A stretch of 64,000 nt of DNA from Azorinus chamasolen. Lineage: Eukaryota; Mollusca; Bivalvia; Cardiida; Solecurtidae. The stretch spans positions 19,192,957-19,256,956 of the forward strand of contig OY755247.1 of the NCBI GenBank assembly GCA_963576725.1, written 5' to 3'. The notes under the pieces are model-generated. The model had not been told where the DNA came from and searched no databases. It saw nothing but the letters and a program-made list of their open reading frames with translations. Below, one piece after another: positions 4,701-59,451 of the stretch (position 1 is the first letter of the stretch; each line of letters opens with the position of its first letter). The translations under genes and the position numbers were made by a program.

Positions 4701-7700
4701 GGACTTATAATTTGCGTTTAGCAAAAATGTTAACCGGTCTGTCTGTCTGTAACATCTCTAACTCAAGTTCCGCTTGGTGGATCCTTCCCAAATTTAACCA
4801 CAATGTTTATCTAGACATGCTACAGTAGCCTGCCAAGTCCCTGCTCGTTTATCCAAGGTCAAGGTCGCTTAATTGGACTTAGAATTTGCGTTTAGCATTT
4901 GCGTTAAGCAAAAAGTGTTAACCTCGATTTATGTGGAACAAGTCCACTTATTTACATAACACTTTGTGATAAAACTTTGAAACTTGGAACACTTGTTCAC
5001 AGTCACAACCTTCACCTGTAGGCAAGAGTAAATAACTCTGTCAAGCATTTTTACCTGATTATATGCCCCTTTTTAACTTAGAATTTTTGGTTAAGGCTTT
5101 GTTAAAGTCCATTTATTTACATAACCCTTTGAGATAAAGCTTTGAAACTTGGAACACGTGTTCACCGTCACAACCTTCACCTGTAGGCAAGAGAAAATAA
5201 CTCTGTCAAGCATTTTGACCGAATTATGCCCCTTTTTAACTTAGAATTTTTGGTTAAGGCTTTGTTAAAGTCCATTTATTTACATAACCCTTTGAGATAA
5301 AGCTTTTAAACTTAGAACACTTGTTTACCTTCACAACTGGCACCTGTAGGCAAGAGTACATAACTCTCTCAAGCGTTTTGACTGAATTATGCAACTTTAA
5401 CTTAGAAATTTTGGTTAAGGTTTTTGTTAAAGTCGATTTATTTACATAACCCTTTGAGATAAAGCTTTTAAACTTTTAACACTTGTTCACCATGACCCGC
5501 TTCACCTGTAGACAAGAGTACATAACTCTGTCAAGCATGCTTGACCGAATTATGCCCCTTTTTAACTTAGAATTTGGTTAAGGTTTTGGTTTAAGTCCAC
5601 TTATTTACATAACCCTTTCAGATTAATCTTTTAAACTTGGAACACTTGTTCACCATCACAAGCTTCACCTGTAGGCTAGAGTACATAACTCTGTCTAACA
5701 TTTTGACATAATTATGACACTTTTTAGCTTGGAATTTTTGGTTAAGGTTTTGGTTCGACGGGCGTATATTGTGCCCACTGGCACTCTTGTTGTCATTTGG
5801 CATGAAACATGGGGATTGGTGTCGCAAACTCCTACTTCAATTTTAAGGTTGTTCAATTGATACTTGCCATACATAATAACCACAAACAAATGTGCAAGAC
5901 ACAAATTTTCATATGATTAGTGCTGGGCATTGCGGATTTATCTCCCCATGAACTTAGTTGGGTTTTTTTTAATTTTGGCATGAAACATGGAGAGCTGGTG
6001 TCATGAACTCCTCCTTCAGTTTTAAAGTAGTATACATAATAACCATGAATAGTAGATGGACAACACTTAATTTTCATGTGTTTAGGGCTATGCATTGCAG
6101 AATTATCTCCCCTTGAACTGAGTAATTTTTGTCATTTTGACATGAAACATGGGGATTGGTGTCGCAAACTCCTCCTTCGATTTTAAAGTTATTCAATTGA
6201 TACTTTCCATACATAATAACCACAAATAGCAGATGTGCATGACATATTTTTTAAGTGTTTAGCGCTGGGCATTGCAGAATTATCTCCCCTTGAATTTTAA
6301 GAGTTATTGTGTTTTTGTCCTATTACATGGCTAGTTGGTGTCACAAATTAGAATTTGCAATCAAAGCTGCCATGCGGGGGTATTTATCACCTTTAGTGAT
6401 AGTTCTAGTTACTCCTTACATTAATAGGAACCCTCTAATCTGGGTATGCACTGTTTACAAAAGATATTAGTGACTCGTTTTCTGCACTAGAAGGGTTAAA
6501 GAAATGTTATTTTGTTTCATTACCATAGTTTTGAACCATTATGAATTTTTAATGCATAATTTTTCTGTCAAGTGATCTTGGAAAGAAGTTTGAAAGTTTT
6601 GTGCTCAGTTTTATGATCACCACATACTTCTTTGTGCTATAAAAATGCATTACTCTTACTTTCAATAAACCTTTACCTAATGAATATTAATGTAAGAAAT
6701 AATGAATACAGTAAAACCTCTCTATAACAGCCACTAAATTGTGTTAATTAGTTGTTATTTAGGGTATTTAGGTACCTGCCTTTAACACAAAATACATGAT
6801 GTAATTTAGTGGTCGTTATAGAGAGGTTTTACTGTATATGGTAATTATTGGTTAGCTTAATCTTTATAATGGCATTATGAACAAGGGGTATTTTGACCAT
6901 GGCAGAAACTATAGAATTGATGTATATAACTTCAGATGCAAATATAGCAGACCCTGATCAGATGGCTCCTAGAGGAGTTGTCTGATATTTGCAAAAGCAT
7001 CAAAAGTGTCTTTATGAGGTAAAAGGTTGAGGGATTTCATCTGCAATGCAAATGTTATCTTATCAAATGTAATCTTATGAGATTCAGAGCTCCAGATAAG
7101 ATGCGCAAATTAAAATATTTTCAAGAATAACTCTTTTGAGTTTGAGATATCGAAGTTCAACTGTATACTGAATTTTTATAATTGCACATGAAAAAGCGAA
7201 ATTTTGCAATAGCAAACAGTATATACTCTATTCTGTAACCATATTTAAACAAAACAGAGCTGACTCTGATCAGACAGCTACTGCAGGAGCTGTTTGATCT
7301 GGATCTTTTTTGGGGGGGGGGGTTCTTTTGCAATAACATATGTATGTGTGTATTTATGAAGTAAAGAGTTAAATCAAATTGAAATGACAATGCTGTTTTT
7401 GCTCAGTGTTGAAACTGTTGCCTTTTCCATAGACTCAAACTAGGCCATAATTTGCTGTTTCCTATTAAAGGACTTGCTGGAAGAAATTGAAAAGACAAAA
7501 CAGAAAGAGAAAGAGGAGAGAAAAACAAAAGGACGTAGAATGAAAATAGAAGATGTGGATGACATGGAAGAGGAAACAGAACAAGAAAACACATCTCCAA
7601 CTCCAAACGGACCAGCCGCAACAGAAGTCAAAGCAGACAAACCCAAGTCAAGGAAAATGAAGATAGAAGAAGTGGAAAGTGATGATGAAGAAGAAGAGGC

Positions 7701-10700
7701 TGAAGTTGTAAAAGTAAATAGTCCTTGCAATGAAGAAGCAAATGATAAACCATTGATGAATGGTTTAGATGAACCAGTAAAAAGCGCTAAAGATCAAATG
7801 CTTGACTATCAAACAGATAAAAGTGGAGACTCAAATGTATTACCTGTAAATGATAAAGTCACAGGTGTAAATATTGAAGACAACTCAACAGGAAAAGAAA
7901 TATCACACGATACTGGAATGGATATAACAGAAACTTCTAATGAAAACAAAGATTTGGACAATGAAAATGTTGTGGGTGAAAATGATACTGAAGAAAGTTC
8001 TGAAACTACAGAACAATGTACTACAACCCAAAAAGTCGAAGAGGAAAGTGATACTCAGACATTGACAAGACCAGTATTTTATACCAAAGACTATCCTGAC
8101 AATTGTAAGGCTTACAGGGAGGAGGCAAATAAGTTATTTAAAAATGGACAGTATGGGGATGCTAAAGAAAAATACTCCAAAGTGATTGCTGAGCTGGAAA
8201 AATGTAAGTTGAGTTTACCTTTTACTTGATATGCAGTCCCTTTAAATGTACTCTTTGCAAACAAAGCACACCCTGGTCAGACTGCTTATTTACTGGAATT
8301 TAATTAATTAATTAAAATGGTAGAAGTTTTGCTTGAATATTCATTAATTTTCTGAATGATCACCATTTCGTGTTATGAGTCAATTTCTCAAAAAATAATT
8401 GCCATTTTTAGCTCGTCTGTTTCGAAGAAATCACGAGCTATTGTTGTCACTCGGTGTCTGCGTCGTCGTTGTCGTCGTTGTCGTCCGAAATCTTAACATT
8501 GACCATAACTTCTTCAATTTTTCATTTACAACCTTCATTTTTGGTATGCATGTTCATCTTGACAATGACGACAGACGAGCGTTGGTACCCGCTTGCAGTG
8601 CTCTTGTTAAGAGATACTACTGTTTATCACATAACCTGCAGTGTGGGAGTGCTGAAAAAGAATGCTGTAAAGTGCAGAAATGCACTTGTTCATTTTATAG
8701 TAAAGTTAGCAGTTTGAATCCAGCCGATAATGAATTTTAAAAAGAATGCACAGAACCAATGCATGACTTACTTAATTGTAAACCAATCGTAGCACTGCAG
8801 GACTGATTCACTCCATGTGCGTTGTCCATTGTATTGTACATGTATTACTATGCAGTTTGTAAACAATGGCCGAAACAGCCGTCAGCTATAGCGTGTTTTA
8901 CCTTCTACGGTACTTTTTAACCCATTCCCTCATAGGCTATTTTAAGATCCAACCTCTTTGAATAAATCTACTGAAAAGGAGCATTAACTAGAGAAAAGGA
9001 TTTTTTTTAGAATTTTGTAGTTTGAAACTATTGTGATAAATAGAGCATTTGCTCATATAAGAGCAAATGCTCTATTTATCACAATGGTTTCATGAAGTGA
9101 CTACCACAGAGGCGTAGAAAGGCGTATTTACGGAGGAAAGGGTTAAGGATGATGTGATAGTGCTAACAGTGTAGGCCCAAATCAGAGGGCTCCTGATAGA
9201 GTCCTTTGGTCAGGGTCTTCACTGTTTATCATACAAACCATTTTCATCAGTGATAAAATCTTAAATTTGTGTTTAACCCTTTCCTCCATAAATACGCCTT
9301 TCTACACTTTTGCAAACATAGTAGACCCAGATCAGAAGATTCCTGTTGGAACCGTCTGATCAGGGTCTGCTCTGTTTGCTTGTGAAATTATTTAGATTTG
9401 ATTCTACAGTTTTCTGCAATGGAAAACTATGGAAGCAAATGCTCTATTTATCACAATGGTTTCAAACTATTAAATTCTAAAAAAAAATCCTTTTCTGCAG
9501 TAAATGCTCCTTTTCAGTAGATTTGCCCAAGAGGTTGGGTCTAAAAATAGTCAATGAGGTAATGCGTTAAAGAGGTTCTACTGTATTTCTGTTGCCAGTA
9601 AAAGACCAGGTTGTGAACTTGGCCCTAAACTACAGTAACAGGGCCGCATGCTGCTTAAAGACAGGTGATCTCCCAGGCTGTGTGAAGGACTGTAACAGCT
9701 CATTGGATCTCGTACCTCAACAAATCAAACCTTTGCTGAGACGAGCTACTGCTTATGAACACCTAGAAAGGTTAGTGCATGTATATTACCTGCCTCTTTG
9801 AGTGCATAAACTTGTACATCCTGTTGTCCTTTAATGCTTTGAGAAAAGTTTCTGGCATTTGCAAACTTGAAGATTCAGATAAGAGGTGAAGTATAAAAAA
9901 CACTCGACCTCTCAGTAGGTTTTTCCCTGACCCCCTTTTTCTATTGAAATGTCCCTTAAATTTTACAAATGACCCTCAAAATTAAGATGATCTGTTCTTT
10001 ACTTTATAGAGAGGGAGTCAAGAAGACCCTCAAATTGGTCTTTTTAAAGGGGTCAAGGGAAAACCCTGCCCTCTGGCTTGTATTTTATTGGTTTTCTAAA
10101 TCTTGTATTATTTGGGATCAACGTTTCTTCCTCAACAGAATAATAGTGTAAACTTTAAAAACAGTTTTGCCATCAATGTCAGTTCGAACTGTTACACAGA
10201 AGCTGTTCTTGGTTTGTGTGGTTGGCCTTTGTTAACCCATTCCCGCATAGACTATTTTTAGATCCTACCTCTTTGATTAAATCTACCAAAAAAGGAGCAT
10301 TGACTACAGAGAAGGAAAATTTTAGAATTGTGTAGTTTTGAAACCATTGTGATAAATAGAGCATTTGCTCCTATGGAGCCTCTGTTTATCACAATGGTTT
10401 CAAAAAGTGAGATTTACAGAGGCGTCAAAAGGCGTCAATATGCGGGAATGGGTTATGTGCCAGACAAGGTGGAAGGCATACAAATTTGCTCATGTCCATT
10501 CATCCATCTGTATGTTCTGCAAATTTTGTGTTTCCAACTCTTCATACACCAATAGGAGGATTTACTTAACAGATGAATAACGTTAATGTGAAGATGAACA
10601 TAAAGAAGGGATTTTTTGCTCAGAACATTTTTACCAGAGTTATGGGACTTTTCTTCTCTATATAATGTACAGTGAAATGTGTGTTCAACTCCCCATACAC

Positions 10701-13700
10701 CAACTGGAGGAATTAATTAAAACTTTCACAAATGAACAATGTTGATGTGAAGATGTAAGTAGAGAAAGGAATTAATACTGCAATAGTTTTTCCTAGATTT
10801 ACAATACAGTTTAACTTCGATATCTCAAACTTCAATTGACCATACAAATTAATTTGAGATAACAAACGTTCGAGTCATCCGATTTGTAATCTGACCAATA
10901 CCTCAAGTTCACAGCTTAATGCAGGTCTAAAGTAATGCTGAAAGCTCCTGTAGGAGATTTCAGCATTATTTTTGACCTGCATTAAGCTGTAAAATGTGTT
11001 TTAGATATGTGTAGTGATACATTTTAGAACAATTCTGTATTGTAAATTTTGGAACCAAACTTTTAGTTCGAGTTGTCCCGAAGTTCGAGTTATCTGAGTT
11101 CGAGATATCGAAGTTCAACTGTATAGTGACAAATCTTGTGTGTCCAACTCCTCATTTGCCAATAGGAGGATTTATTTCAAACCTTCTCACATTGATATGA
11201 AGATGTGCATGTACTTTGTAGATATAAAAGGAACTATTCTGTTGTAACTGTTTTTAATAGTGTAATGGGACATTGAAATTTTCTTTACTATACATAGCAC
11301 ATAGTGAAAAAAAATGTTATATGTCCAACTCCTCGTACACCAATGGAAGGATTTACTTCAAACTTTCAGAATGGATTTTTTGTCCCAACCCTTTTTACCA
11401 GAGTTATGGGACTTTGAAATTGTCATCATTATATAACATATAGTGAAAAGTGTTGGACTGAAAGACAGTATGGCCAGAGAGGCACCCGTGTCCTATGGAC
11501 CCAATTTCCTAGTTAAATACTAAAATCTTCAAGACTATGCTATAAAGTGGGGTTTGGTGGAGATATAAAGGATTTTTTTAATGGTTTAACTTGCGCATTT
11601 TATCTAAGCCTTTCTACATTGACTTTACTCAAGGAAGAACAGCAAGGAATGTCGATTTTTTCCCTGTATATACCTTTTATTTTTATTAGTAGTATAGCTT
11701 TTCTAAGAATGTTTTTGGTGTGGATTAATATAAAGCAAACAGAGACCCTTGTCAGGGAGCTCAACTCAGTACCTGATAGGGACACCTTTTGGCACCTTTG
11801 CATACAGAATAGGCCCAGATCAGACATCTCCTGTAGGAGCCATCTGATCAGGACCTGTCTTGTTTACTAATAGAATGTATTAGATCTCATTCTATACTAT
11901 TTGTCATAGTATTCATTTGTTTTGAAAGAATATCTATTAACCCTTTACCCCATGAATATTCATGTAAGAAATAATAACATCATGAATATCAATTAGATCA
12001 TTGTTATAATAGCACATGGGCACAGGAAGTCTTGCAATGGTAGAAACTGTAGAACAATTTCTTTATTATTTCATGAGCAAACAGAGCAGACCATGATCAG
12101 ACGGCTTCTGTAGGAGCTGTTTGATCTGGGTCTACTCTGTTTGCAAAGGCATAGAAAGTTGTATTTATGGGGTAAAGGGTTAACAATATGATATGCAGAC
12201 ATTGCATAAATTCACAATATAGGCACACATATAATATATATACACAGTATTTGAAGACTAATGCTTTCAAACTACTGTTTGCATGCTAACAAGGTTATGT
12301 CCCTTTAACCCTTTCCCTCATATAAACATGTTTTCACACATTTGCAAACAGAATAGACCCAGATCAGACGGCTCCTAGAGGAGCCGTCTGATCAGGGTCT
12401 GCTCTGTTTGCTAATAGAAAGTGATAGATCTGTTTCTTTGCTTTCTAAAATGTCTACAATGTTCCACCTTCCATATTTCTGTGTAACTATTTTGTTAATG
12501 AATATTCAGTAGGTATTGAAATTTGGCCTAAATACAGAAGAGGAAAGGGTTAAATGATTTGAAAAAACACTTACAGAAAAGCACAGGCATGTACTTATGA
12601 TACTCATATTACAGTTTTAGGAATAGTCTAAAGGACATACTATGCCCATGTACATTTACAGTATTAATTTTCTGTTATATTTAATTCAAGGTGATGTATA
12701 TTTTTTAGAGACAGGAAAGCCTATGTGGATTACAGACATGTTTTACTTCTGGATAGCAGAACTGAACAGGCTCATCTTGGAACTAAAAGGTTGGTGAACA
12801 AATATTTACCCTTTCCTTGGTATAAACCCCTTTTCACACCAAACCATCCTGGGTACATATGCTATTATAAAAAATCATCAACTAATAAATATTCATGATG
12901 TCATTATTTCCTACATGAATATTAAACAAAGAAAGGGTTAATCTTTTATACAATATTCAATATAGGCATTCATTACATAGCAGTGCAAGATGTGGGTTCT
13001 AGGATGACATGTTTTGAAAACATTGTTCTTATATGTCAGAATAATATGAAAGACTGTCAGACTACATGTATCTAAGAAATTTGCTACACGTTTTAATGTT
13101 ACATCTTCAGTTAACAGAAGATTGTTCTATACTTAGATGTCAAGCAATATTAAGTCAGCGGGATGGACCAAGATGGCGAGAGAAGCTGCAGCTTCTGCAA
13201 GTGTCCCCCTGGGATATTCCAGAAGTCATTGGCTTGGATGGGAAATCTGTTGGTTCTGTTTTTGTTCCTACACCTCCAGCTCCAACCTGTGTGCCAGGTA
13301 CCAGTGCAACTAGCACGTCGAGTGCCACTAAAACAGTCACAAATGAACAGAAAACCACCAAAGACAATCAACAGACACTTCCCAGTAGCCCATCAGTAAA
13401 ACCAGTCAAAGTAGTAGAAAAGGAGGAACCAGTTATGTCGCCACAGGAGAAATTTGATACCCTGAAAGCTAAGGGCAATGAACATGTGAAAAAGGTGAAT
13501 ATATTAGTTGTGTTTTGCCTATTGCTGATAAGTTTCAGATAGTGCACAGAGATACAGATAAAGGTGCATACTCAATTACTAAAATTGTCATTTCTCCACC
13601 AAACCCTATATTATGACCACTCTTTAGAATTGTCTCTAAGTAGAATCGTCTCTTAGTAGTCACAGTATAGGGTTTGGTGGAGAAATAGAAGAGCTATTCT

Positions 13701-16700: not shown

Positions 16701-19700
16701 AGGTCATCCTTCAGGGTCAAAGGTCAGATGTTTGTTTGTTTGTCAGCAACTTTAACATTGGGCATAACTTTTAAATCTGTAGAGACAGAGACTTGATATT
16801 CAGCATGCATATGTATCTCATAAAGTCGTACATTTTGACGGGTGACATGTCAAGGTCATCTTTTAAGGTCAGAGGACAAATATATAGGTCAAATCAACAA
16901 CTTTAGCATTGGCCAAAACTTTTGAACCAGTAGAGATAGAGACATGATATTTGGCATGCATGTGTATCTCATGAAGCTGCAAATTTTGAGGGGTGACATA
17001 TCAAAGTCAAGGTCATCCTTCAGGGTCAAGGGTCACCGACTTTAACATTTGCCATAACATTTCAGCCAGTAGAGATACAGACTTGATATTTGGTATGCAT
17101 GTGTATCTCATGGATCTGCACATTTTGAGGGGTGACATGTCAAGGCAAGGTCATCCTTCAGGGTCAAAGGTCACCAACTTTAACATTTGCCATAACTTTT
17201 GAATCAGTAAAGATTTAAACTTGATATTTGGTATGCATATGTATCTCATGAAGCTGCACAGTTTTAGGGGTGATATGTCAAGGATAAGGTCATCCTTTAG
17301 GGTCAGAGGTCTCCGGCTTTAACATAGGCCATAACTTTTGAACCTGTACAGATACGGACTTGATATTTGGTATGTATGTGTATCTCATGAAGCTGCACAG
17401 TTTGAGGGGTGACATGTCAAGGTCAAGGTCATCCTTTAGGGTCAAATGTCATATCGGGGGGGGGCATAGTGTTTCACAAACACATCTTGTTTCTAGTATC
17501 TTGTTTATTATAACCCTGCAAAGGAGATTTAAGAGGGAGTATATAGGAGTCAGTGTGTTGTTTGGTCTCTCTGCTTGTCTGTCTGTCCGTGGCACAACCC
17601 GGCACAAATCTTGTTTGATTTGCAATCAAGGCAGCTGAGGGGGGTATTCCATCATCTTTAGTGATAGTTCTAGTTTATGTTGTAATTATCTGCTTTTTAG
17701 CCAGAGGATGCAGAGATGGATTGTAGTAGGGCCTTAGCAACAGAGAAGGACAATGTCAAAGCCCTGTTCAGGAGGGCCCAGTCTAGAAAAGTAAGTAAAC
17801 AGGATAATATTGATAATGATAAACACTAGGACTATTCCAGCCAATCGGTCATATTGGTCATTCATTTTATCCATATATGAAGTAAAAGATCATTTTGAAG
17901 TTGAGAAGAATTATTAGGCATGTGAGTTGCGGATTCAAGGAGCCTGGTGTAATTGGTCAGGTTTACCTGATTAGATTACATTTGAACAACTTACATAAGA
18001 GATAACAGTATGTAGATGAAAATAAATTCATTTTAAATATGTTAAAAGTGTCTTTCACAGCTATATGTAATCAACAGAAATTAAAAAACCTGCCTGCATT
18101 GATCAGTAAAACCTCAATAGAAATTTTAGTAATGAAGCATCTGTAATTTTCGTAGGCATTTTCATGGGAATTTAACGGTCTGAAGTCCTGTACCTGTAAA
18201 ATCATGATAATGTCACTAAGTCTCTACTAAACTGTATGTTGTGACCATTCATTAGAATTGTCTCTTCAAGATGATTTAATAAATGGTTACAGCATACTGT
18301 TTGGTTGATACAAAAGCTTAAGTATTTTAGATATTTATTATAATTATTATTATGTATCCCATATCTAGGTGTCCAGTTTTAAACAACTGATTATTAATCT
18401 ATCATCAATTAGTTGCACCATCCATAGTAAAGAAAATGTTGACTTAATTGAATTCATGTTCTCTTATTTCATTCAAGATGTTGAAGAGATACAGGGAGGG
18501 TATTGAGGACTTGAAGCACTTGTTAAATGTTGAACCAACAAATGCTGCTGCCAAAAAGGAAATGGAAGTGTTGAAGAACTACTGGCGGGAGGTATGATAT
18601 ATATAAGAAACATATTAACCCTTTACTCCATAGATATGACTGAATATTCATGATGTCATTATTTCTTGAATTAATGTTCTTGAGGTAGAGAGTTAACAAT
18701 CTATAGTTTCACCAACAGCCTGTGAATACATAAGAATTACCATGCTAGTAGGTTTGAAGTTCAGCTGTATTTTGGCGAGTTAGAAAAGTTGTTAAATGCG
18801 ATCCTTGGCGAGCATTTAACTACTTTTCTGATGAGCCAAAATACAGCTTAACTTCAAACCTACTAGCATAGTAATTCTTTTATCATGATACACCAAGAAA
18901 AATCGAAAACATGAAGAAAAAGAAAGATTGCTAAAGCGGTTTCGTCCCCGGAATGAAAATACATGCAAGTACGATATACGTGACGTCATATTGGCGTGCA
19001 GTGACGTCATCAACTTTTACAACATAAACAAACTTGATTTAATCCTTTTATATGGACAAATAGTTGAGACAAAGGTGAGGAAATGTGTTAAATTTGATGT
19101 TTGTGTTTAATTATGCCTTTTTCGTCTTTCTGTTTTCCTCCTATTGGCTGAACCAAACTTGCATCCCAGTGGTGTCAGTACACATGCACTATACCTCACA
19201 AAATACAGCATCGACATGGACAGTATTATGCTAGTAGGAAGTGACTGTATTTGGTGACGTTGCTTGATAAAATGTTGTTTAATTTGATATATTAATAAAG
19301 TTATGATTAAAAAATACACACGGACAGTTCACATTCTATAAGCCGATGTGCCATGGCTGCCTTGGGTGCCTAGTGTTAATGGCCGACTTATAACCCAGTG
19401 ATCAGGGGGTAAATTGTGAAGTCGGGAGAATATGTACATTGTATGTAGTTCCAGACTATAAACCTCACCTTTACCTTTTTATGGAAAAAACTGATAACTC
19501 TTGCAACAGTTTTAATCTAGATTTACTTGGCCAAATAGCAAATTTTCATTCTTGTAAAAAATTAAACTTTGGGATCAGGCAGTGTTTGCAGTTCTTAAAA
19601 TACTAATACATATTTGTCTTTTGATAATGATAACAAAGGAGCTACAGAATATGAAGAAGGATCTCTCTAGTAAGCCAGAGTCAAAGCCTGCAGCCAGCAC

Positions 19701-22700
19701 ACAGGAGAGCAAACAAAGCTCTAGAACTGCTCAGAGTGGAGCTGGGAAACAGAGGAAGAAGATGGTTATAGAGGAAGTGGAGAGTGAAGAGGAGGAGACA
19801 ACTGCCAGAGGTAATGCACAAGAAAACTTATCTGGATGATATTCCAGACTTTGCAATAGGCGCACTGAAAGTGCAGTAAAACCTCTCTATAACGGCCACT
19901 AAATTGTGTTAATTAGTTGGTATTTAGGGCAGGTGGCAGCTTAAAGCAAGATGAAAGTGAAACAGAACGCTCCTATAGGAGCGTTCTGTTTCACTTTCAC
20001 CTTGCTTTAAGCAGCCACCTGCCTTAAACATAAAATACTTAATGTGATTTAGTGGCCGTTATAGAGAGGTTTTACTGTATAACTGTTGTGACTACAAAAA
20101 TAATTTGATTACGTCCTTAACTCTTTACTCCATGATTATTTATGTCTGATCTGGATCTGCTCTGTTTACAAAAGAATACTTATGGAGTAAAGGGTTAACA
20201 AACACATTGGATTCATATGAGACACCAAATAATGTGAGGAGCCTCCGTGGCCCAGTGGTTATGGAAGCTGCTTTTTTTGGCAAACACTTGAGCATACAAG
20301 TATAACCTTCGGAATGTATTTTCTTTTTTTTTTTCAGAAGTACAAATTAACAGACAGGTTTGTTTTCTGTTTCAGGCAATCAGAAACAGCCACAGAAGTC
20401 CACAGACAAGAAGAAAGATGGTCCTCATATACAGGAAATACATTCTAAACCAGTCAGTCAAACTTCAAGTAATAAACCAGGCAATCAGTCATCTGGTGCT
20501 AAATCAGCCACTGACAAACCAGCTTCTAAACCAGTCAAAGGAAAGTCAGAAACAAAACACAAACCAGTCAACAAAAAGTCCCAGATCAGGGAAACAAGCT
20601 CAGGTCTACCACAAGTGCCAAAAAGTGTTCCCAAGCTGGATAAAGCAACCCCATATGAATTCATATCGACATGGAATGCCTTGAAGAAATCAGATACAGT
20701 CGAACCATACTATAAACTCTTGAAACAGATCAAACCAGCAGATATAAAAACTGGTAAGACTTTCAACTCTATATGGTTATGTGTCAGTTACTAGTCTAGC
20801 ATAGTTTTGGTAGATAAAAATGTAATTATACCCCCTTCCCCCAACATGCAGGTGCACACACAAACTTACTTACATCTTTGCCATACTTATTTTGGTTGTA
20901 TTAACTCATTTCCTCATATAGCGCTCTGCTGATTATAATAGATCTGACTCTACAGTTTCTACCAAGACCAAAAGATCCTGTGTACATTTGCAATTATAAA
21001 AAATCAGCTAATAAAATATTCATGTCATAATGTCTTTAATACATGAATATTAATCAGGGAAAGGGTTAATACTTCACACATTGAATATTTATGTAAGAAA
21101 TGACTGCATGAATATTAATTAGCTGATGAACACAGGAATTTTTAATCATGGCAGAAACTGCAGATTTATAATCATAATTCCATAAGCTTATAGAGCAGAC
21201 CCAGATCAGATGGCTCTTACTGGAGCCATATGATCTGGATCTACTTTAGTTGCAAGGCGTTAAAATGTGTATTTATCCCTTTTCTCCATGAATATTCATA
21301 CAAGAAAAAATGACATCATGAATATTAATTAGATTAATTTGTTAAAATATCACTTTGACACTGAAAGTTTTAGCTAAGGCAGAAACTATACTATGGAATC
21401 ATATCTATATTATGATAAAAGCAAACAGAGCAGACCCTGATCAGATGGCTCCTATACGAGCCATCTGATCTGGGTCTACCCTGTTTGCAAAGGTGTAGAA
21501 AGGCGTAATTATGGAGTAAAGGTTTAAGTAATAAAGGGTTCTAGGAGTCGCACAGATAAAGGGGCGTCTATCAAATACTAAAACAATCGGTTATCCACCA
21601 AACCCTATGTGGTATGACCTCTCTCTGCAGGATCATTTTGAAGACATGACAGAGCAGTAGAAGCTAATTTCAAAAGAAGGCTCACTTTATGCATTATATC
21701 TAAGCCTCTAATGTTCTTCTATCTGTTGATCTGGTAGTAGTTTCCTATGCATAATTTGATTAACTCTTTGCACGCTTTGGATCCAGTTCGGAGTTACTCA
21801 GCATCTTATCTGAATCTAATCAGTTTTCACAGGTACCACAAATTCGCTGCTAGAATGTATGGATTAAATAAGCATCATTTTTTTTTTCTTCCAGTGATAT
21901 CAAACAAGCTAGATGGTAACATGCTGAATGTGATAACAAAGTGTGTAGCAGAACATTATATAACAAATGGTAAGTAGGTTCCACTATTCTTTATACATGT
22001 TGGCACACCGGTGGTCGTGGTTGAGTGGTTAAAACGCTCGACTACAATACCAGGGGTCCCCCGGTTCATTCCCCGGCAGACCAAGTCCTTCGGATGAGAC
22101 GTTATAAACCAAGGTCCAATCTATCAGTGCTTCACAGTGGGCATCTATAAGAACCAGAGAAACTCTATCGATAATAAGAGTAGGGCATCATGCCTGGGGT
22201 TCTCTGTATCCGCTCCCTCTCTCTTAGACTCTTGGGCGTCCTATCAGCCCATAGATGACAGAAACGGACTTTAATCAACACACACATGTTGGTATACAAA
22301 AGAAAGTTTTAACCCTTTACCTGTCTTGAATATTCATGCAAAACCCATTATTAATATCGATTAATTGTTTGAATGGTGTAAAGAAGTGTACATTTTTGTA
22401 CTTGCATTTACAAACTGTGGACCCAGATCAGTGGGCTCCTAGAGGATCCTTCTAAATGTCACTTTTTGAAACCATTTTGAGACAGGAGCAAATGCTCTAT
22501 TTATCACAATGGTTTAAAAAATTACACAATTCTAAAATTTTCTACATAGGAAGTTGGGATTATCTTTGTAAACAGTATAGATCCAAATGAGACTTCAAGT
22601 GACTTAACCCTTTACTCCATGAATATTTATCAAAGAAATGAGGATGTCATGAATACTAATTACCGGGACCAGTAGATATTTTAGAAACAAACAGAGCAGA

Positions 22701-26170: not shown

Positions 26171-26398
26171 TAACCCATTACCTCATAGGCTATTTTTAGA
26201 TACAACCTCTTTGAATAAATCTAACGAAAAGGAGCATTAACTAGAGAAAAGGAAAATTTTAGAATTTTGTAGTTTGAAACCATTGAGATAAATAGAGCAT
26301 TTGCTCCTATAGGAGCAAATGCTCTATTTATCACAATGGTTTCACAAAGTGGCTTTTACAGAGTCGTCAAAAGGTGTCAATATGAGGGAATGAGTTAA
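26170..26398. mobile_element. PB-B MITE, complete
   Basis: Near-perfect 66-bp palindrome (26277-26342) with gctcctataggagc at its centre; TTAA both ends. Confidence 0.85.
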
Positions 26399-28877: not shown

Positions 28878-30588
28878 CAGTTGAACTTCGATATCTCGAA
28901 CTAGGATAACTCGAACTTGGGGTTAACTCGGAACTAAAAGTTCGGTCCTTCCAAAAGGTTGTCAGACGCTTCGCTACCCATACCATTTCGCTACAGTCAT
29001 TTCGCTACCCACCGAGAAGTCATTTCGCTACCCTGACCATTTCGCTACCTGTACATTTCGCTACCTATCGAATTTGATAGAAAAACCAATATTATTGCGG
29101 GGGTGGTTAGTGATTAAAAGTTTAAGCGATAAGAAATATTATCGACTTTGTGAAATACATAATGATAATAATAAAAAAACACGATGATAATCACAACAAA
29201 AATATTAGGTTTTAATAGATTAAATATATACATAATACACGTTTCATTATCGGTGCCTCTGTGATATTGCTGATTGAATTAAGTCACCCGCTGCTCTCGT
29301 AATTACACGTGCCAATCAATATTGTCCACCCAGATATCACAGGTACCGCAGATATAACATTGGCTTGTATAACGGTATGTGGCACTGATTGGATTAACAC
29401 ATACTGCTATAGTGGGAATAAAATATACATGCTTCACTGTAAGACAAACGCCAATGTATTTTGTATAAATGATAAAAGATACTAAAGAGTTCAGACTAGA
29501 AAAATGTGTTGAATCTTTGATATGTACAGTGCATTACGATCACATGAAAAGTTCAAAATGCAAGCATTACTTATGCACTTTTACTTTAAGGTTTGTTAAC
29601 CATTTACCTGCTCTAAAGTTTAAAATATTCTCATAATTTTTAATTTGAATTCGGATGATATGTTGAATTACTCGGCATCTCAACCGGATCTAAGTTGCTT
29701 GGACACGGAATATGGTCTAGTTATTTACTAATATACCATACCATTCGCGAATTTTTGGGATTATTTTGAAAATAGAATTACGACTTTTTATATAATTACG
29801 GTTACATGGTGTGTTGTCCTATGACAACAAACAGCTTGTTCTGTGCATCAGATTTCATTTACACGGGTGTATTCATCGGCGCAGTGCTATTGTTATTACA
29901 TGTAGATGCAGTTTGGAACTAGATGATCTCACACAATTATAATTATGTGTAAACAGTCAACTACGTTTCGGATACGACACATAGAACAGTCCTAATTGTC
30001 AGTTTTGTTAGTTTTGTGATATACTTACGTTGAACATATTTCCGAACAGCTATATCTTATATGCGAATTAACTAATTTACTGTGAACGTTTCATTCGGAT
30101 CCAAACTGTTTGCCTATGCTGCTACGCTCGGTAGAGTATTTCAAATTGGTAAAGGTATCTTTTTCATCGGTTAAACTATTATCGTCCAAATCAATTAATT
30201 ATGTGAATAATTATAATTAATTGGGTGACAGGGTAGCGAAATGACTTCCCGTAAGGGTGCGAAATGACTGTAGCGAAATGGTCAGGGTAGCGAAATGGTC
30301 AGGGTAGCGAAACGCTGTGTAGCGAAACGTCCGTAAACCTTCCAAAACATACATTACAGAATTGCTGTTAAATATATCACTAAGGATATCTAGAAACACA
30401 TGTGACAGCTTAATGCAGGTGTAAAGTAATTCTGAAAGCTCCTGCAGGAGCTTTCAGCATTACTTTACACATGCATTAAGCTGTCAACTCGAGAAATTGT
30501 CCAGAATAGAAATCTGGTAACTCGAACTTCTGTTATCTCAAACTAATTTATATATTCCCTTGAAGTTTGAGATATCTTAATTCAACTG
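28878..30588. mobile_element. PG-C MITE split by E2
   Basis: cagttgaacttcgatatctc to tatcttaattcaactg with TA flanks; centre aagctcctgcaggagctt. Confidence 0.8.
28957..30337. mobile_element. E2: element with word-array inverted ends (TTCGCTAC)
   Basis: A 1381-bp insert in a PG-C MITE, flanked by the 10-bp direct repeat ccttccaaaa (28947-28956 and 30338-30347). The left end holds about six copies of ttcgctac within 120 bp; the right end holds the complement gtagcgaa about five times. There is no coding potential in the interior. The duplication length suggests a Mutator-like mechanism (inference). Confidence 0.75.
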
Positions 30589-33211: not shown

Positions 33212-33438
33212 TTAATGCTTTCCATTGATATGCTTTTCAATGCCTTTGCAAACAGAGAAGACCCAGATCAGACAGCTCCAGATAGAGCTATCTGATAAGG
33301 GTCTGCTCTGTTTCCTTTGAAATGATATTGATCTAATTCTAGAGTTTCTGTCATTAAAAATGAATTCCCTTGTTCATCGGGCCATGATAAATATTCAGTT
33401 AATTAATAATCATGAATATTCATAGAATAAAGGGTTAA
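33212..33438. mobile_element. PB-A MITE
   Basis: ttaatgctttccattga to ataaagggttaa; core cagctccagatagagct. Confidence 0.7.
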
Positions 33439-33663
33439 CCCATTCCCTCATTAGCTATTTTTAGATCAAACCACTTTGAATAAATCTACCGAAAAGGAGC
33501 ATTAACTAGAGAAAAGGAAAATTTTAGAATTTTGTAGTTTGAAACCATTGTGATAAATAGAGCATTTGCTCCTATAGGAGCAAATGCTCTATTTATCACT
33601 ATGGTTTCAACAGGTGACTTTTACAGAGGTGTAGAAAGGCGTATTTATGGAGGAAAGGGTTAA
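33435..33663. mobile_element. PB-B MITE, complete
   Basis: Shares TTAA with the preceding PB-A copy; perfect palindrome centre. Confidence 0.8.
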
Positions 33664-46382: not shown

Positions 46383-46860
46383 GGTTAACCCTTCCCCATA
46401 TTCATGTAAGAAATAATCACATCATAAATATTTATTAGCTGAAATTTTACAATGGCCTAAGTCGAAGGATTTTTTGGTACAGTAAAACCTCTCTAAACCG
46501 GAATTCTAGCACAGAAGATTTTAGATACTTTTATGCAGGTGGCTGCTTAATGCAGGGTGAAAGTCATTCAGAAAGCTCCTAGAGGAGCTTTCTGAATGAC
46601 TTTCACCCTGTATTAAGCTGCCACCTGTCTCCAAGACCAATATTTATACTAAATTTTACGTCCGGTTTAGAGGGGTTTTACTGTATTGGTAAAAACTGTA
46701 GTCAAATCTACAGGTATTATAATTTCAAATCTACAGGTATTATAATTTCATAAGCAAACAAAACAGCCTCTGAATAGACATAGCCAATACGATCTGTCTG
46801 ATCTGGGTCTACTCTGTTTGCAAAGGCGCGGAAAGGCTTAATTATTGAGTAGAGGGTAAA
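46383..46860. mobile_element. PB-A carrying a nested PG-B
   Basis: ttaacccttccccata; PG-B inserted at a TA; a 23-bp duplication (aaatctacaggtattataat..) follows; right tip agagggtaa. Confidence 0.7.
46480..46683. mobile_element. PG-B MITE, complete, nested in PB-A
   Basis: cagtaaaacctctctaaacc to aggggttttactg, TA on both sides; centre aagctcctagaggagctt. Confidence 0.8.
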
Positions 46861-47557: not shown

Positions 47558-47998
47558 ACCCCTTACTCCATAAATACGCATTTCTATGTCTTTGCAAACA
47601 GTAAAAACAGATCAGACAGCTCATAAAGGAGCCTCCTGATCTGGGTCTGATCTGTTTGCTTATGAATAATATACACTAAAACCTCTCTATAACGACCACT
47701 AAATTGTGTTAATTAGTTGGAATTCAGGGCAGGTGGCTGATTAAAGCAAGGTGAAAGTAAAACAGAACGCTCCTATAGGAGCGTTCTGTTTTACTTTCAC
47801 CTTGCTTTAAGCAGCCACCTGCCTTCAACACAAAATACTTGATGTAATTAAGTGGACGTTATAGGGAGGTTTTACTGTAGATCTAATTCTGCACTTTTGC
47901 CATGGAAAAATTGTTTCCTGTACTCACATGCCATTACAAAAAAAAATAATCTTATTGATATTTATGACGTAGTTTATTCATGAAGGTAAGGGAATAGG
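47558..47998. mobile_element. PB-A carrying a nested PG-A
   Basis: accccttactccataaat, core cagctcataaaggagcc, long-side flank after the insert. Confidence 0.65.
47674..47877. mobile_element. PG-A MITE, complete, nested in PB-A
   Basis: cactaaaacctctctataac to gggaggttttactg; centre acgctcctataggagcgt. Confidence 0.8.
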
Positions 47999-49730: not shown

Positions 49731-49999
49731 TTAACCCTTTCCTTGTTGAATATTCATGTAAGAAATAATGACATCATGAATATTACTTATCAGAATGATT
49801 ATAACCGAATGTATACACAGGATATTTTAGTATTGGTAGAAACTAGAGTCAGATCCGTTATAAACTAGAAACAGATCTATTAAATTCTATTTGCAAACAG
49901 AGCAGACCCTGATCAGATGGCTCCTCTAGGAGCCGTCTGATCTGGGTCTACTCTGTTTGCAAAGGAGTGAAAAACCGTTTATATGAGGGAAAGGGTTAA
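49731..49999. mobile_element. PB-A MITE, complete
   Basis: ttaaccctttccttgttg to gaaagggttaa; core tggctcctctaggagccg. Confidence 0.8.
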
Positions 50000-50671: not shown

Positions 50672-50874
50672 CAGTAAAACCCCTCTAAAAGGGAATTCTA
50701 GTTGAGCAGAATTTATATACTTCTAGGCAGGTGGCTGCTTAATGCAGGGTGAAAGTCATGCAGAAAGCTCCTAGAGGAGCTTTCTGCATGACTTTCACCC
50801 TGCATTAAGCTGCCACCTATTTCCAGGACCGATATTTATACTAAATTGAATGTCTGGTTAAGAGAGATTTACTG
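50672..50874. mobile_element. PG-B MITE, complete
   Basis: cagtaaaacccctctaaaag to gagagatttactg; centre aagctcctagaggagctt. Confidence 0.8.
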
Positions 50875-51234: not shown

Positions 51235-51425
51235 AGATAACGATGAGTACACAAATACTAAAATCATCATTTCTACACCAAACCCTATGTTATGACCACT
51301 CTTTAGAATCGTCTCAAAGAGACGATTCTAAAGAGTAGTCACAACATCGGGGTAGGTGTAGAAATAAAGAAGTTATTCTCGACAATAGTTTAATGTACAC
51401 ATCTTATCTAGACCTCTGGTATCAT
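51235..51425. repeat. FB-1 foldback, complete
   Basis: ctacaccaaaccctatgtta, centre gtctcaaagagac, complement to ggtgtagaaataaag. Confidence 0.75.
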
Positions 51426-53605: not shown

Positions 53606-53609
53606 ATAT

Positions 53610-54516: not shown

Positions 54517-54677
54517 AACTAGAACTTTTTCTCCACAGAAATACAAGGGTGTCAAAAAGTTAAGATACAAACAAGACATCAATTACTGTCACATCTGGAT
54601 AAAACATGTTTGAAAATGTCCTCATTATATCATTTGTAGCATCCTAGGAGATAAAGAGCTAAAAATTACTTTCGATT

Positions 54678-55827
54678 TCAAGACTTTCTGTAGGCAAATA
54701 TGGCAGCCAGACACAGGTAACCATACAATATGGCACAAATAACATTTTCTGCACAAGTCCCATCACTCTGCAGCCACAGACCAAGCTTGACTGCTCCTAT
54801 CAGCACAAAGATGCACACTATCACAGCAACAAGTCCTCGTATGGATAACCTAAATGAAAGCCAATTTCTAAGAAATCTTTTCTTCTCTCGTTGCATGAAC
54901 AAGGTATCAGATACCCTATTTGTTAACACACCTCTACCCACCCACAAATGACCCAATCTGTTCATGATCCGACCAGGCTTGAAAGAAAAGGAGTTCTGCC
55001 TAATCAGCTTATTGCTAACTGACTTTTGCGTAGAGTCAACCAGACCCTTGAACTTCTGGAAGCAAGATAACAATTCCAAACACATGTCCTCCTCCTGTAA
55101 CTCTCCAAGAAATGTAGCACCCCGTGTCAGCTGATCCACATAACCGGACAGTTCAGTTTCATAATCTCGAATTTCTTTCACATACTTGTCTCTCGTTGCC
55201 ATAATCTTCGCAATTTTTGCATCTGCCAGTTTTTGGATAGCCTGATTTACCGCAGTTGCATGTTCTTTGATTTGCTGTATGGCGTCATCTGCTGATTTCT
55301 CTCCATTCTTTTCTAGGTCACTCAGCTTTGTAAGTGAAGTCTTTACCTCTTTTGTATCTATTTGAAGCTTATCCAAATCAAATTGTAGATGCTTTCGGGC
55401 CAGTTGTAACTTCTTAGTCAATGTGATGGTATCATGTTTCTTGTGTGAATCGCAAACACATGACACGCAGATGACAGCATCACATGTCAGACAAAACATC
55501 TGCAGTGATTCGTCTTTGTGTTGACTGCAAAATCTCTCCGATGTTTGGTACTCCCCTATATTTCCTGTCTCAATTCTGATAATGTTTGGCTGTCGTCCGG
55601 TCATGTGCGTAAATAAACGGTGATCATGCACACAGAACTTGCAGATATCAAAATCACAGTCGATACATCTGTACTGGGACACCAACCAGTCTCTCTCACA
55701 CACTTCACAAATTCCAAAGTAAGGCTTTGAACCCAGTTCATCCTGTATACAGTTGATGTAGAAGTTTGGAGGAAAGTCTTTCACCCCACCCCTTGGCACA
55801 CAGACATCAGCTCTGCATTGCGGACAT
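54678..55827 (-). CDS. TRIM-like gene exon 2 (rest of RING to C-terminus)
   Basis: The minus-strand acceptor is tattatttag before 55827. The exon opens with RCPQCRADVC, completing the RING, and runs uninterrupted for 382 codons to TGA at 54680-54678. Being one long exon, it resembles a retrocopy-like or compact TRIM structure. Confidence 0.9.
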
Positions 55828-58800
55828 CTAAATAATACAAACAAGATGTGTTTGTGATACACAATGTCCCTACAGGCACAGGGACTTACAATGTTGACCT
55901 TTAACCTTTGTATGATCTTGATATGGTACTACAGTGCTCCCTCTCTACAACGACACCCTTTGGGATACGAAGATTGTATGTGTTGTTCAGAGGGAGTTGT
56001 TATAGGGAGGGAAAATCAAACATAATTAGCTTGTTTGCAGATCCCCAGATAAGGTGTATTTCAAGAACTAAGACCATTATGCCTCTATCAAACCCTGTGT
56101 TGTGACCACTCTTTAGAATCGTCACAAAGTGACGATTCTAAAGAGTGGTCACAACATAGGGTTTGATAGAGGCATAAAGAAAATACGATGGAAAAAAGTT
56201 GTTTCTGGAGCCTTGTTGTTTCGGAAACGGTGACATGCGTTGTTGTAAGGAGGGAATTGTTATTGAGAGGGCCGTTGTAGGGAGGGAGCACTGTACTCAA
56301 AAGTTGCAATTTCATCAGATGTGTATATACATGCCAACTTCATTGCCAAGTATGAAGTATTTGTCTTTAATCATTTACTTCATGAATATTCATGCTAATA
56401 ATGACATCCTGAATATTAACCCATTCCCTCATAGGCTATTTTTAGATCCAACCTCTTTGAATAAATCTACCGAAAAGGAGCAGTAACTCTAGAGAAAAGG
56501 AAAGTTTTAGAATTTTGCAATTTGAAACCATTGTGATAAATAGAGCATTTGCTCCTATAGGAGCAAATGCTCTATTAATCACGATGGCTTCAACAGGTGA
56601 CTTTTACAGAGACATAGAAAGGCGTATTAATGGAGGAAAGGGTTAAATAACTGGGTATTTATTTTTATAATGGCACAATTAAATAATTAAATTAATTAAT
56701 GACAGAAACTGCAGAATCGGACCTATATGTATTTCATTTCATCAGTAACTAGAGCAGACAGACCCTGATCAAACAGCTCCTTCAATAGGATACAATAGAG
56801 CACCAGTACTATGTGTGTCATGTTTACATATTAACTCTCTTGTCCATAATTATGTACACCATTTAATACCTCTGCAAAAGAGTAGACCCATATCAGACAG
56901 CTCCTGTAAGAGCTGTCTGATAAGAGTCTGCTCTGTTTGCTTATGTGATAATATAGATCTGATTCTATATTTTCTGACAGGGCCAAAAATTCCTGTGTCC
57001 ATCTGCCAATATAACAAGATGTGTTTGCGAAATACACTGCATGCCCCCGATATGACCTTTGACCTTGATGTATGATCCTGACCTTAATAAGTCAGCCCTA
57101 ACATTGTTTGCCTCATTGTTTTACACATGCAAGCAAAGCTGAAGTATGTATGTGCTTTGGCGACAAAATTATCGCCAACGTAAAAGTTAAGGGCCAAACA
57201 GACAATCCATTGCCAATGTACAGACAGGGCAAAAATAATAAACAAGAGGGCCATGATGGCCCTGATATCGCTCACCAGACAATCAGGAGAAGATTTTCAA
57301 AGTTTTCACTATGTTCTATAGAAAACTGGCCATCCCTGGGGTGGGGCTTTATTTCTTAGCATGACTTGACTGAAATTAGCACACAGTTTGGATTCTGATC
57401 TGATGCATACCTGTATATAACTTCGTATGTGGTTTGTACATGAGTTAATTGTAAGATTGATATGCATTAACCCTTTCCTCCATAAAAACGCCTTTATACG
57501 CCTCTGTAATAGTCACTTTATGAAACCATTGTAATAAATAGAGCATTTGCTCCATAGGAGTAAATGCTCTATTTATCACAATGGTTTCAAATCTACACAA
57601 TTCTGAAATTTTCCTTTTCTCTAATTAATGCTCCTTATCAGTAGATTTATTCAAAGAGGTAGGATCTGAAAATAGCCTATGAGGGAATGGGTTAAAAACA
57701 GTGTGAACAAACAGACACTAATTCTGAAGCAGACAACTTTATAGAGTTTTGACCAGGAATTTGACCTCTCCAGTGATTACATAACACAGACTGAGTATCT
57801 AGGGTCCTTCTAGCTCAGGGGAACCTTTATAGTGTAAGAGTCTATTTTAAAGTTAACCAACAGGGCAGGGCCAATTTTAACCTCAGAACTATGATATTAA
57901 CCAATTTCAATAAGTTATACTAAGTAAATCCATACACCAAATATCTAAGCTCTGTGACATGTAGTTTTTGACAAGAAGATTTTTAAAGTTTTCCCCATGC
58001 CTAACCTAAGTGAACCCAGCATTCTGCTACTTGTACAGAAAACAACAGTCAGCTAAAGAAAACTGGCCACCCCTGGGACCGTGGCGGGGCCAATTTTGAC
58101 TCCAGGGACATAATTTATATAACTTTGTAGAGGACCTATAGGTGATGCTATGTGCCAAAGATGAAAGCTGAGAACCCTGTAGATTCAGAGGAGAAGACTT
58201 TTAAAGGTTCAAATTGTTGACGACGCACACCGCACACCGCACGACGCACAACAAACGCCGACAGACGACAGACATCAGGCGATCACAAAAGCTCACCCTG
58301 AGCACTTTGTGCTCTGGTGAGCTAATAATATCCCCATTACAGGAATTTATGATCATGATGTCATTATTTCTTTCATGAATATTCATGGATTAAATGATTA
58401 ATGTAACAAGATTAATTCCAGTCAACTAATATATGCATGCAAAAGTACTGCTTCATATAAAGAAGGAAACATTGAACAATACACTGTTGTCCTACCAGTA
58501 GACTAAATTGAAGGCTTGTTGCAATTAGTTAGAATAGTTTTGCACCAAGCCCTCGAAATAGAGCAATGATACCATCTTACCTACCAAGGTACATTTTACT
58601 GTTTCCTTTTGAGTCATTTACAGACATAATCTATTTACCTAGTGAATACTCATGTTAGAAAAATATGTCTTATGAATATTGATTAGATGAATGGCAAATG
58701 GCGTTAGAACAAAGATTTTTTTGGTTTTGGCAGAACTAAAATCAGATCTATAAACAAACAGAGCAGAACCTGATCCTACAGGAGCTGTCTGATCTAAGTC

Positions 58801-59190
58801 CACCATTTGTAAATGCATAAATATGTATCTTTATATGTCAAAGAAATGGTTATACTCACACTAGCTGACAGACTTAAAAAAGTAAAATCACAAAATGGTA
58901 AAGTTTGAATTTTATTCACAAAATGCATATACAAAATTAAAATTTAATAATAGTAACTCGTGTTACAACAGCATGTGGGAACTTTAAGTTACAATATGAA
59001 ATTACAAACTATAAAAATACCTGAATAAGCGCCCTGAGGAAGATGAGGCATGTACATAGTCAAGCAGGCAGTTGAGGCAGACTGTGTGGTGACAGGTCAG
59101 TATTCTCGGATCCTTGTATTCATCCATGCATATTGGACACTGCAGCATACGGTCCCTGAGCCTTTCAATCTTTTCATTCTCCATAGTCAT
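54678..59190 (-). CDS. TRIM-like RING/B-box/coiled-coil protein with two C-terminal membrane segments
   Basis: Two coding exons (59190-59021 and 55827-54678) joined in phase 2 give about 439 residues. The RING finger is split by the intron: C18, C21, C33, H35, C38, C41 from exon 1, then C58 and C61 from exon 2, a complete C3HC4 set. A B-box1-like cysteine cluster (97-126) and a B-box2 with C157, H160, C169, C172, C177, C180 and H185 follow, then a coiled coil (about 190-330). The C-terminus has hydrophobic stretches near 387-408 and 418-435, so the protein is probably membrane-anchored. RING-B-box proteins are usually E3 ubiquitin ligases (family knowledge); the membrane anchor suggests ER or another endomembrane, as for vertebrate TRIM13 and TRIM59 (inference). 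No NHL, SPRY or filamin domain is present. I cannot assign an ortholog. Confidence 0.88.
55932..56293. mobile_element. PG-D MITE carrying an FB-1 foldback
   Basis: cagtgctccctctctacaac to tagggagggagcactg, TA on both sides, in the TRIM-like gene intron just upstream of exon 2. Confidence 0.7.
56079..56178. repeat. FB-1 foldback nested in PG-D
   Basis: 100-bp near-perfect palindrome centred on gtcacaaagtgac. Confidence 0.8.
56370..56780. mobile_element. PB-A carrying a nested PB-B
   Basis: tttacttcatgaatattcatg; resumes with aataactgggtatttat; ends in the left core arm. Confidence 0.6.
56416..56646. mobile_element. PB-B MITE nested in PB-A
   Basis: TTAA both ends, perfect core; inserted after gaata in a PB-A copy. 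Confidence 0.8.
56832..57012. mobile_element. PB-A MITE, right end lost
   Basis: ttaactctcttgtccata, core cagctcctgtaagagctg. Confidence 0.65.
57013..57100 (-). mobile_element. HH 3' fragment
   Basis: Minus strand ends gcatgca, gtgtatttcgcaaacaca, tcttg, like the tail of 16292-17492. Confidence 0.45.
57241..58325 (-). mobile_element. HH element (CTTGTT end) in TRIM-like gene intron
   Basis: Minus strand: 5' hairpin agctcacc..ggtgagct (58294-58323), 3' hairpin gggcc-atcat-ggccc, tcttgtt. A PB-B MITE (57467-57695) sits inside. Confidence 0.7.
57467..57695. mobile_element. PB-B MITE nested in an HH element
   Basis: ttaaccctttcctccat to gaatgggttaa; centre gctccataggagt. Confidence 0.8.
58328..58402. 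mobile_element. PB-A end remnant
   Basis: tcatgatgtcattatttc to ggattaaatgattaa. Confidence 0.5.
58628..58845. mobile_element. PB-A, decayed
   Basis: tatttacctagtgaatac; core tcctacaggagctgtctg. Confidence 0.55.
59021..59190 (-). CDS. TRIM-like gene exon 1 (first half of RING)
   Basis: Starts MTMENEKIERLRDRM, then CPICMDEYKDPRILTCHHTV. The donor on the minus strand is cag/gtattt at 59020. A second ATG two codons in could also be used. Only 8 bp separate the ATG from the TTAA end of a PB-C MITE at 59199. Confidence 0.87.
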
Positions 59191-59198
59191 TATGTCCT

Positions 59199-59451
59199 TT
59201 AACTTCCCTTTGCTTGCTCTTCACGTCAATATACCTACCTGTAAATAGTGAAGACCCAGATGAGACAGCTCCTGCAGGAGCTGTCTCATCAGGGTCTGCA
59301 CTATTTACAAGTTGATTGTGCAACCAGTGCACTCCACAGCAGTGATTGCACAGCGAAATACGTGTACACAGTGAAGATATATGTAATTATACAACAGGGC
59401 ATGGGTAAAGAAGGAGAAATGTATTTTAAAATTCAGCCAGAGAAGGGTTAA
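59199..59451. mobile_element. PB-C MITE abutting the TRIM-like start codon
   Basis: TTAA at 59199 and 59448; centre acagctcctgcaggagctgt. It lies 8 bp upstream of the ATG on the minus strand. Confidence 0.8.

Follow-up and report, generated by a model that had tools for sequence, protein, structure and literature searches.

The stretch of the Azorinus chamasolen genome analysed here (64,000 nucleotides of contig OY755247.1, positions 19,192,957 to 19,256,956, referred to as the window and being the single 64-kb sample from which all window counts below were taken) has a GC content of 36.3% and carries several families of miniature inverted-repeat transposable elements (MITEs) built around the same 14-letter palindromic centre (referred to as the tip). 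Complete copies of one group of families, such as those at 49731-49999 and 11937-12183, run from TTAACCC to GGGTTAA; other copies have mutated ends. The other group has CAGT...ACTG termini, with ATA and TATA as outer flanks at 6709-6834 and 10807-11121 and a mutated flank in some copies. Both terminal signatures, the second with TA flanks on several copies, had been correctly described in an earlier reading of this DNA from its letters alone (referred to as the sequence-only reading). Based on their end signatures we take the first group to be piggyBac-like (PB) and the second to be pogo-like (PG); the family names PB-A, PB-B, PB-C and PB-D correspond to F1, F2, F3 and D, respectively. Similar palindromic TTAACCC repeats with other centres probably occur in other bivalve genomes.

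The tip has a 6-2-6 layout, GCTCCT-NN-AGGAGC, in which the half-sites are fixed and the NN pair is variable. Exact GCTCCTNNAGGAGC was found 19 times in the window versus 0.00 times expected from 100 shuffles, and allowing up to three mismatches yielded 73 occurrences versus 10.35 expected. Reading the printed arms by hand revealed that all 19 exact copies are centres of MITE palindromes (six in PB-A, two in PB-C, six in PB-B, two in PG-A, two in PG-B and one in PG-C), confirming that PB and PG elements have a common centre. The six positions at which the sequence-only reading had placed this centre were correct to within 0-10 bases (the true starts being 22714, 26303, 59268, 19969, 50767 and 30438), and the close variant that it reported for PB-D, GCTCCCCTAGGAGC, was indeed located at 1443. 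An ungapped palindrome scan of the window returned 49 palindromes, in 40 of which the tip was judged by hand to be present, either exact or decayed (in some cases heavily). It had been lost from two further family copies (2763 and 6706), and other centres were seen in the remaining seven (3389, 18220, 18732, 22907, 23142, 51269 and 56077). By eye, a separate palindrome family with the unrelated centre GAATCGTCTC-AAA-GAGACGATTC has four copies (18220-18311, 22907-22973, 51269-51365 and 56077-56177), and long palindromes with unrelated centres were sighted once each in the scan at 18732-18879 and 23142-23356.

The NN pair first gave the impression of being random, which was overturned when copies were oriented by the asymmetry of their arms: AT (11) and AC (9) then dominated over CT (3) and others (3; n = 26), from which it follows that NN is inherited. 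A thermodynamic demand for the exact tip sequence was ruled out, as 17% of 4096 tips are more stable, and 20 of 60 tips of the same composition (the actual tip counted in) are at least as stable. Insertion of a small mobile palindrome was likewise dismissed because the flanks of the tip are inverted rather than direct repeats, and an origin of the hairpin from an Rfam family or a tRNA was rejected given 0 Rfam matches at the gathering threshold and 0 tRNAs with ARAGORN.

To relate the families, one element from each was compared with the whole window by BLAST. PB-A, PB-C and PB-D have a single 68-bp hairpin in common (stem HP1). PB-B has a stem of its own (HP2), but the right ~44 bp of the element are common with F1 at 82-93%. 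The hairpins of PG-A, PG-B and PG-C (stem HP3) align mutually over 76-94 bp at 70-85% (E 8.7e-4 to 4.8e-26); PG-A and PG-B align across the entire element, and PG-C has the hairpin but not the outer sequence in common with them. Because the PG hairpins are alike and PB-A, PB-C and PB-D have one stem, the seven separate families of the sequence-only reading collapse into three stems rather than six or seven, so that there are in total six frames (F1, F3, D, F2, PG-A/B and PG-C), three stems and one tip.

When arms were anchored and compared outside the core, those within one stem matched significantly (17-21 of 27 positions in three comparisons; p < 5e-5 for PG-A with PG-C and PG-B), whereas likeness between stems was non-significant in all 11 comparisons (p 0.051-0.72, the lowest values belonging to PB-B with PG-A at 12/27 and PB-A with PG-A at 11/27). 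The earlier statement that the arms next to the core differ completely thus held for PB-B, which matches the others at none of the five positions beside the core, but failed for PG-A and PG-C. CAGA, set two bases out from the core, is a further match between PB-A and PG-A/B (4/4). In family consensuses, taken as the majority of copies with the two arms pooled, the GCTCCT core was present in all seven families, and all six core columns were invariant across them versus 2 of 27 arm columns.

At the composition of the window, GCTCCT has a chance of 1.1e-4 of occurring in one unrelated arm and of ~1.2e-8 of occurring in both of two. Chance falls far short of explaining one tip on three stems and with two types of terminus, in line with the earlier claim that the shared centre is not accidental. 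Since PB-A and PB-B are linked via their right ends, however, only PG is fully independent, and for PG alone the figure is 1.1e-4. The 14-letter tip looks inherited or functional rather than accidental. That GCTCCT is simply common here, or that the assembly repeats one element, is extremely improbable: GCTCCT or AGGAGC does occur 18 times outside the masked hairpins versus 10.4 expected, but 13 of these 18 are one repeated site in the F2 left spacer, and the MITE copies differ mutually in sequence, decay and flanks, of which the divergent flanks by themselves already disfavour such an artefact.

Descent offers another explanation, in which F1, F3, D and F2 form one TTAA-ended lineage that kept its centre, with coincidence or one capture accounting for PG. 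The common right end means that F1 and F2 are not independent, PB-A, PB-C and PB-D have a single stem, PG alone is then left to be explained, and the within-stem tests described below showed no tip-specific constraint. We nevertheless consider this fairly unlikely, given the low chance of GCTCCT in one unrelated arm and given that PB-A and PG-A/B share CAGA too (although their whole-arm likeness is non-significant, p 0.09-0.15). Moreover, the arms of PB-B and PB-A match at only 6 of 27 positions (p 0.69), so that a replacement of the stem would still be needed.

A firmer result concerns the hairpin as a whole. The left spacers of F1, F3 and D (two copies per frame) aligned no better than shuffles in four comparisons (z 0.4-1.0), whereas same-frame left spacers did align (z 8-24), and the right spacers (one sequence per frame) were no better than shuffles in three comparisons either (p 0.23-0.66). 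By BLAST, one F1 element matched F3 and D copies in the hairpin alone. HP1 lies in a uniform orientation, with its T-arm on the long side, in the copies readable for both ends and orientation, the exception being 47114 (4 of the 36 HP1 hairpins could not be oriented). A right end with at most one mismatch was found for 22 of 30 F1 hairpins, and the distance from tip to right TTAA was 73 bp in 10 and 69-77 bp in 16 of these 22, with the remaining six at 54, 65, 85, 89, 111 and 118 bp. The same distance was 73, 71 and 76 bp in F3 (76 with three mismatches), 75 and 75 bp in D (the second with two mismatches; the copy at 9195 has no usable end), and 89 bp in the three of seven F2 copies that have a clean end. 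In F1, F3, D and F2 alike, a two-fold site therefore lies at a characteristic distance from a TTAA end. Of 36 HP1 copies, 32 retain the same stem mismatch (columns 18/51). The entire hairpin is thus a retained module of the three TTAA-ended frames F1, F3 and D, which differ in their spacers and are similar in its placement. The coordinates are listed in Table 1.

Table 1. Coordinates of MITEs, hairpins and tips in the window.
Feature	Position	Strand	Remarks
F1 (PB-A) MITE, complete, TTAACCC...GGGTTAA	49731..49999	+	
F1 hairpin (stem HP1)	49893..49960	+	T-arm on long side
F1 tip GCTCCTCTAGGAGC	49920..49933	.	centre 73 bp from right TTAA
F1 tip, exact	12371..12384	.	further exact F1 tips at 22714, 25645, 27885, 47108
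F3 (PB-C) MITE frame with HP1	59199..59451	-	right end degenerate (3 mismatches)
F3 tip GCTCCTGCAGGAGC	59268..59281	.	second F3 tip at 126
D (PB-D) MITE frame with HP1	1311..1524	+	
D tip variant GCTCCCCTAGGAGC	1443..1456	.	
F2 (PB-B) MITE, complete	33435..33663	+	
F2 hairpin (stem HP2)	33539..33610	+	
F2 tip, exact	33568..33581	.	right TTAA 89 bp away; exact F2 tips also at 26303, 32663, 37035, 38068, 56551
Extra half-site AGGAGC (AAAAGGAGCATT or close) in F2 left spacer	33495..33500	+	60 bp from left TTAA; in 13 F2 copies including this one
PG-A MITE, CAGT...ACTG	19874..20077	.	entire element one palindrome, tip dead centre (102 and 102 bp)
PG-A tip	19969..19982	.	another at 47769
PG-B MITE	50672..50874	.	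102 and 101 bp
PG-B tip GCTCCTAGAGGAGC	50767..50780	.	another at 46575
PG-C MITE, CAGTTTAACTTCGA...TCGAAGTTCAACTG, TA flanks	10807..11121	.	144 and 171 bp; HP3 within different outer sequence
PG-C tip GCTCCTGCAGGAGC	30438..30451	.	second PG-C copy, hairpin 30403-30486
PG-A copy, hairpin centre lost	6709..6834	.	

The presence of HP1 in three frames and of HP3 in two, with unlike flanks, might in turn indicate that the tip or the entire hairpin was passed between families through recombination or template switching between palindromes. The stretch common to PB-A and PG-A/B, CAGA-NN-GCTCCT, is indeed longer than the core. However, the exchange of the core that the sequence-only reading had put forward found no support in chimeric elements, as the sole candidate (22434-22489) proved to be an F1-like fragment beside an F2 element, each with a tip of its own, and none of the hairpins in the window combined arms from two of the known stems (arms of unknown origin lay outside this search). 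Since random exchange would also not be expected to leave F1, F3 and D alike in orientation and distance, we regard this route as very unlikely.

The tip is also the point at which hairpins come apart. Arms losing homology inside the hairpin numbered 15 of 29 in F2, 13 of these 15 doing so at most 7 nt from the centre (p 2.4e-5 under a uniform null), and 42 of 90 in F1, with 20 of 42 within 7 nt (p 0.03); these p values are optimistic because the two arms of one copy were counted separately and small indels were scored as breaks. The clustering of losses at the tip marks it as a breakage point, and hairpins evidently form and then shed an arm from the tip. Moreover, symmetric derived changes among 26 F1 copies (15 versus 5.85 by permutation, p 5e-4) were as expected of template switching from arm to arm, though subfamily structure can contribute, and PG-A and PG-B are each a near-perfect palindrome in most copies, yet their arms differ from one another.

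These three observations all favour a renewal of stems from the tip, in which the inherited inverted repeat GCTCCTNNAGGAGC would serve as a fold-back point: after a break or at a stalled fork, the strand would fold at the tip and copy its own flank, so that the stem is replaced or re-perfected while the tip stays, old but not selected. In yeast, hairpin stems down to 4 bp suffice for fold-back inversions, according to the available part of PMC7467729. Quasi-palindrome template switching and fold-back inversion are indeed known to homogenise arms and to start from short-stem hairpin seeds, which fits the tip-centred losses, but alone they do not yield an identical tip in unrelated families. Renewal from the tip would still require piggyBac-like and pogo-like elements to have one seed in common, and it leaves unexplained both why frames with unrelated spacers hold the tip about equally far from the right end and why a mismatch is kept in the HP1 stem; nor does it gain from the lack of hairpins pairing two known stems, a search that, as noted, did not extend to arms of unknown origin. 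We rank it second and consider it possible, if rather doubtful. Should the tip be such a seed, it would provide a direct handle on the birth and remaking of palindromic MITEs.

As HP1 is kept against changing spacers at a similar distance, and as its half-sites are fixed around a variable NN, we put first, tentatively and with a probability of roughly 0.38, a cis-acting hairpin kept in the source elements, the tip of which would be a two-fold 6-2-6 recognition site. Also in its favour are the invariant core across all seven consensuses, the presence of the tip on the different stem of F2, the HP3 hairpin held within unlike outer sequences, the arm covariation and retained mismatch of HP1, the failure of stability to account for the tip sequence, and the proteins P0002 and P0003 described below. 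The shared core would then be the apex of a hairpin acting as a cis-acting module of the MITE source elements, composed of a sequence-specific two-fold tip on a stem of replaceable sequence. In the TTAA-ended families this module keeps a fixed spacing to the right end and usually points the same way, whereas the spacer sequence around it turns over. The module, this placement and the common tip are observed directly. We infer that constraint would act on the source elements through binding at the tip, where a symmetric protein dimer would account for the fixed half-sites and the variable NN. For the TTAA families the candidate reader may be a dimer resembling the cysteine-rich domain (CRD) of a piggyBac-type transposase, proposed by analogy rather than as membership, and the CAGT families would call for a host factor or a captured hairpin.

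Regarding piggyBac, the available parts of the sources describe a CRD dimer that binds a palindromic 19-bp internal repeat at one end only (PMC7351741), and an activity that requires asymmetric ends (PMC7351741; also PMC11707139). The likeness, which is by description, lies in a two-fold internal site near a TTAA end, as in F1, F2, F3 and D. However, the piggyBac repeat occupies bp 17-33 in the left end, and the accessible text of PMC7351741 does not describe it as the apex of a 70-bp hairpin.

A number of points weigh against a cis-acting hairpin. Among elements chosen by their distal arm, copies showed no better conservation of the core than of the arms, the pattern that the sequence-only reading had itself set against a special role of the core. 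Majority agreement over all 91 F1 arms was 75-91% at arm positions -9 to -3, 52-60% at the next two, 65-77% in the core and 55-59% at NN; for the 77 arms colinear in the proximal arm, a filter that itself favours arm conservation, the values were 82-96, 58-62, 75-87 and 61-62%. All 28 F2 arms gave 93-100% in the arm and 75-96% in the core, dropping towards the centre. This test of copy decay addresses dead copies and not source elements, so that selection is not expected there. Within stems, the excess of the core in the consensuses was non-significant as well (P 0.12 for HP1 and 0.09 for HP3, or 0.63 for HP1 when its six arms were kept separate, noisy D arm included), and the D consensus derives from three decayed copies, of which 9195 has a flank unlike that of the other two, with one D arm reading ACTCCN. 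Without a significant tip excess within a stem, the case rests on sharing across three stems, and it is carried by only these three, one of them from another superfamily and with F1 and F2 related through their right ends. The functional retention suggested by the sequence-only reading is thus supported only indirectly, by the sharing across stems, but not by any core excess within families or stems.

In favour of the hairpin, covariation between the arms of 36 in-register HP1 copies exceeded that of shuffles (48 double-changed cells versus 34.2, 1/500; a covariation score reached by 0/500 shuffles; 82.2% versus 80.9% paired cells, 3/500). On the other side, such counts in related sequences may beat shuffles without structure, and arm symmetry can also arise by arm-to-arm template switching. 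It further weighs against the cis-acting hairpin that one multi-copy palindrome family in the window has an unrelated centre, no transposase or binding protein was found in a Pfam run on 4 open reading frames (ORFs), and a site of the piggyBac type would leave the CAGT families unexplained.

MITE families are defined by their ends. In the present elements the centre is the part most widely shared, whatever the ends, stems and spacers, and this suggests that an internal hairpin may be needed for MITE amplification in addition to the terminal repeats. Were the tip read by a common factor, the mobilisation or silencing of unrelated transposons would be linked. A bolder version, in which two unrelated superfamilies depend on one host-recognised 6-2-6 hairpin apex on interchangeable stems, seems unlikely; if true, this cross-superfamily cis-element would place MITE excision, replication or silencing under the control of a single host (or hijacked) factor.

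Searches of an open-licence library listed no paper that, judged by title and start of abstract, reports one centre in several MITE families whose ends differ. The nearest element found there is also from a bivalve, the MITE-like 'consensus sequence 1' of a Lucina pectinata haemoglobin gene, which is 210 bp long, has imperfect terminal inverted repeats of 30 bp and contains a self-complementary central segment of 77 bp (available part of PMC4732748). Compared by description only, its architecture is much like that of F1 and F2, but the same part of that paper describes no cross-family tip. Together with the repeats and a B-box ORF, this likeness gives the window the look of invertebrate, probably molluscan, nuclear DNA. 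The PG elements resemble palindromic pogo/Tc1-like MITEs in their CAGT ends, the TA flanks on several copies and, for PG-A and PG-B, their near-complete palindromy, and are unlike them in that their tip recurs with two types of outer sequence and also in TTAA-ended MITEs.

Beyond the window, exact patterns of the HP1 arm and hairpin had no match in viral or genome contigs and the PG pattern had none in viral contigs, sets that may omit this genome and its near relatives. The 16-mer TGCTCCTATAGGAGCA matched 8 viral contigs. Neither a plasmid match to the F3 hairpin nor a phage match to an F1 stretch was found. At the protein level, the translated F3 hairpin (NSADPDETAPIGAVSSGSSLF) matched three proteins (P0001-P0003). 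In P0001 the F3 frame itself was present, and P0002 and P0003 (from contigs of 5.3 and 2.8 Mb) contain NSADPDETAPIGAVSSG, which we read as HP1 with an APIGA tip. The latter two matches are weak (E 0.046 and 0.78 for the full database, with 83% identity over 24 and 23 residues), and their flanks matched the window frames weakly or not at all (P0003 reaching 37.5% with the D frame). From their translated sequence they are consistent with HP1 bearing the same tip. Protein searches with a hairpin-crossing F2 ORF and another F1 ORF gave no comparable match.

Open reading frames can run through MITE hairpins, for instance at 87-416 on the plus strand (DPDETAPIGAVSSG and similar), and hairpin-derived entries in the predicted-protein database are probably spurious proteins. 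Elsewhere in the window, an ORF of 415-416 aa on the minus strand (54678-55925) carries a B-box zinc finger (PF00643) and is TRIM-like.

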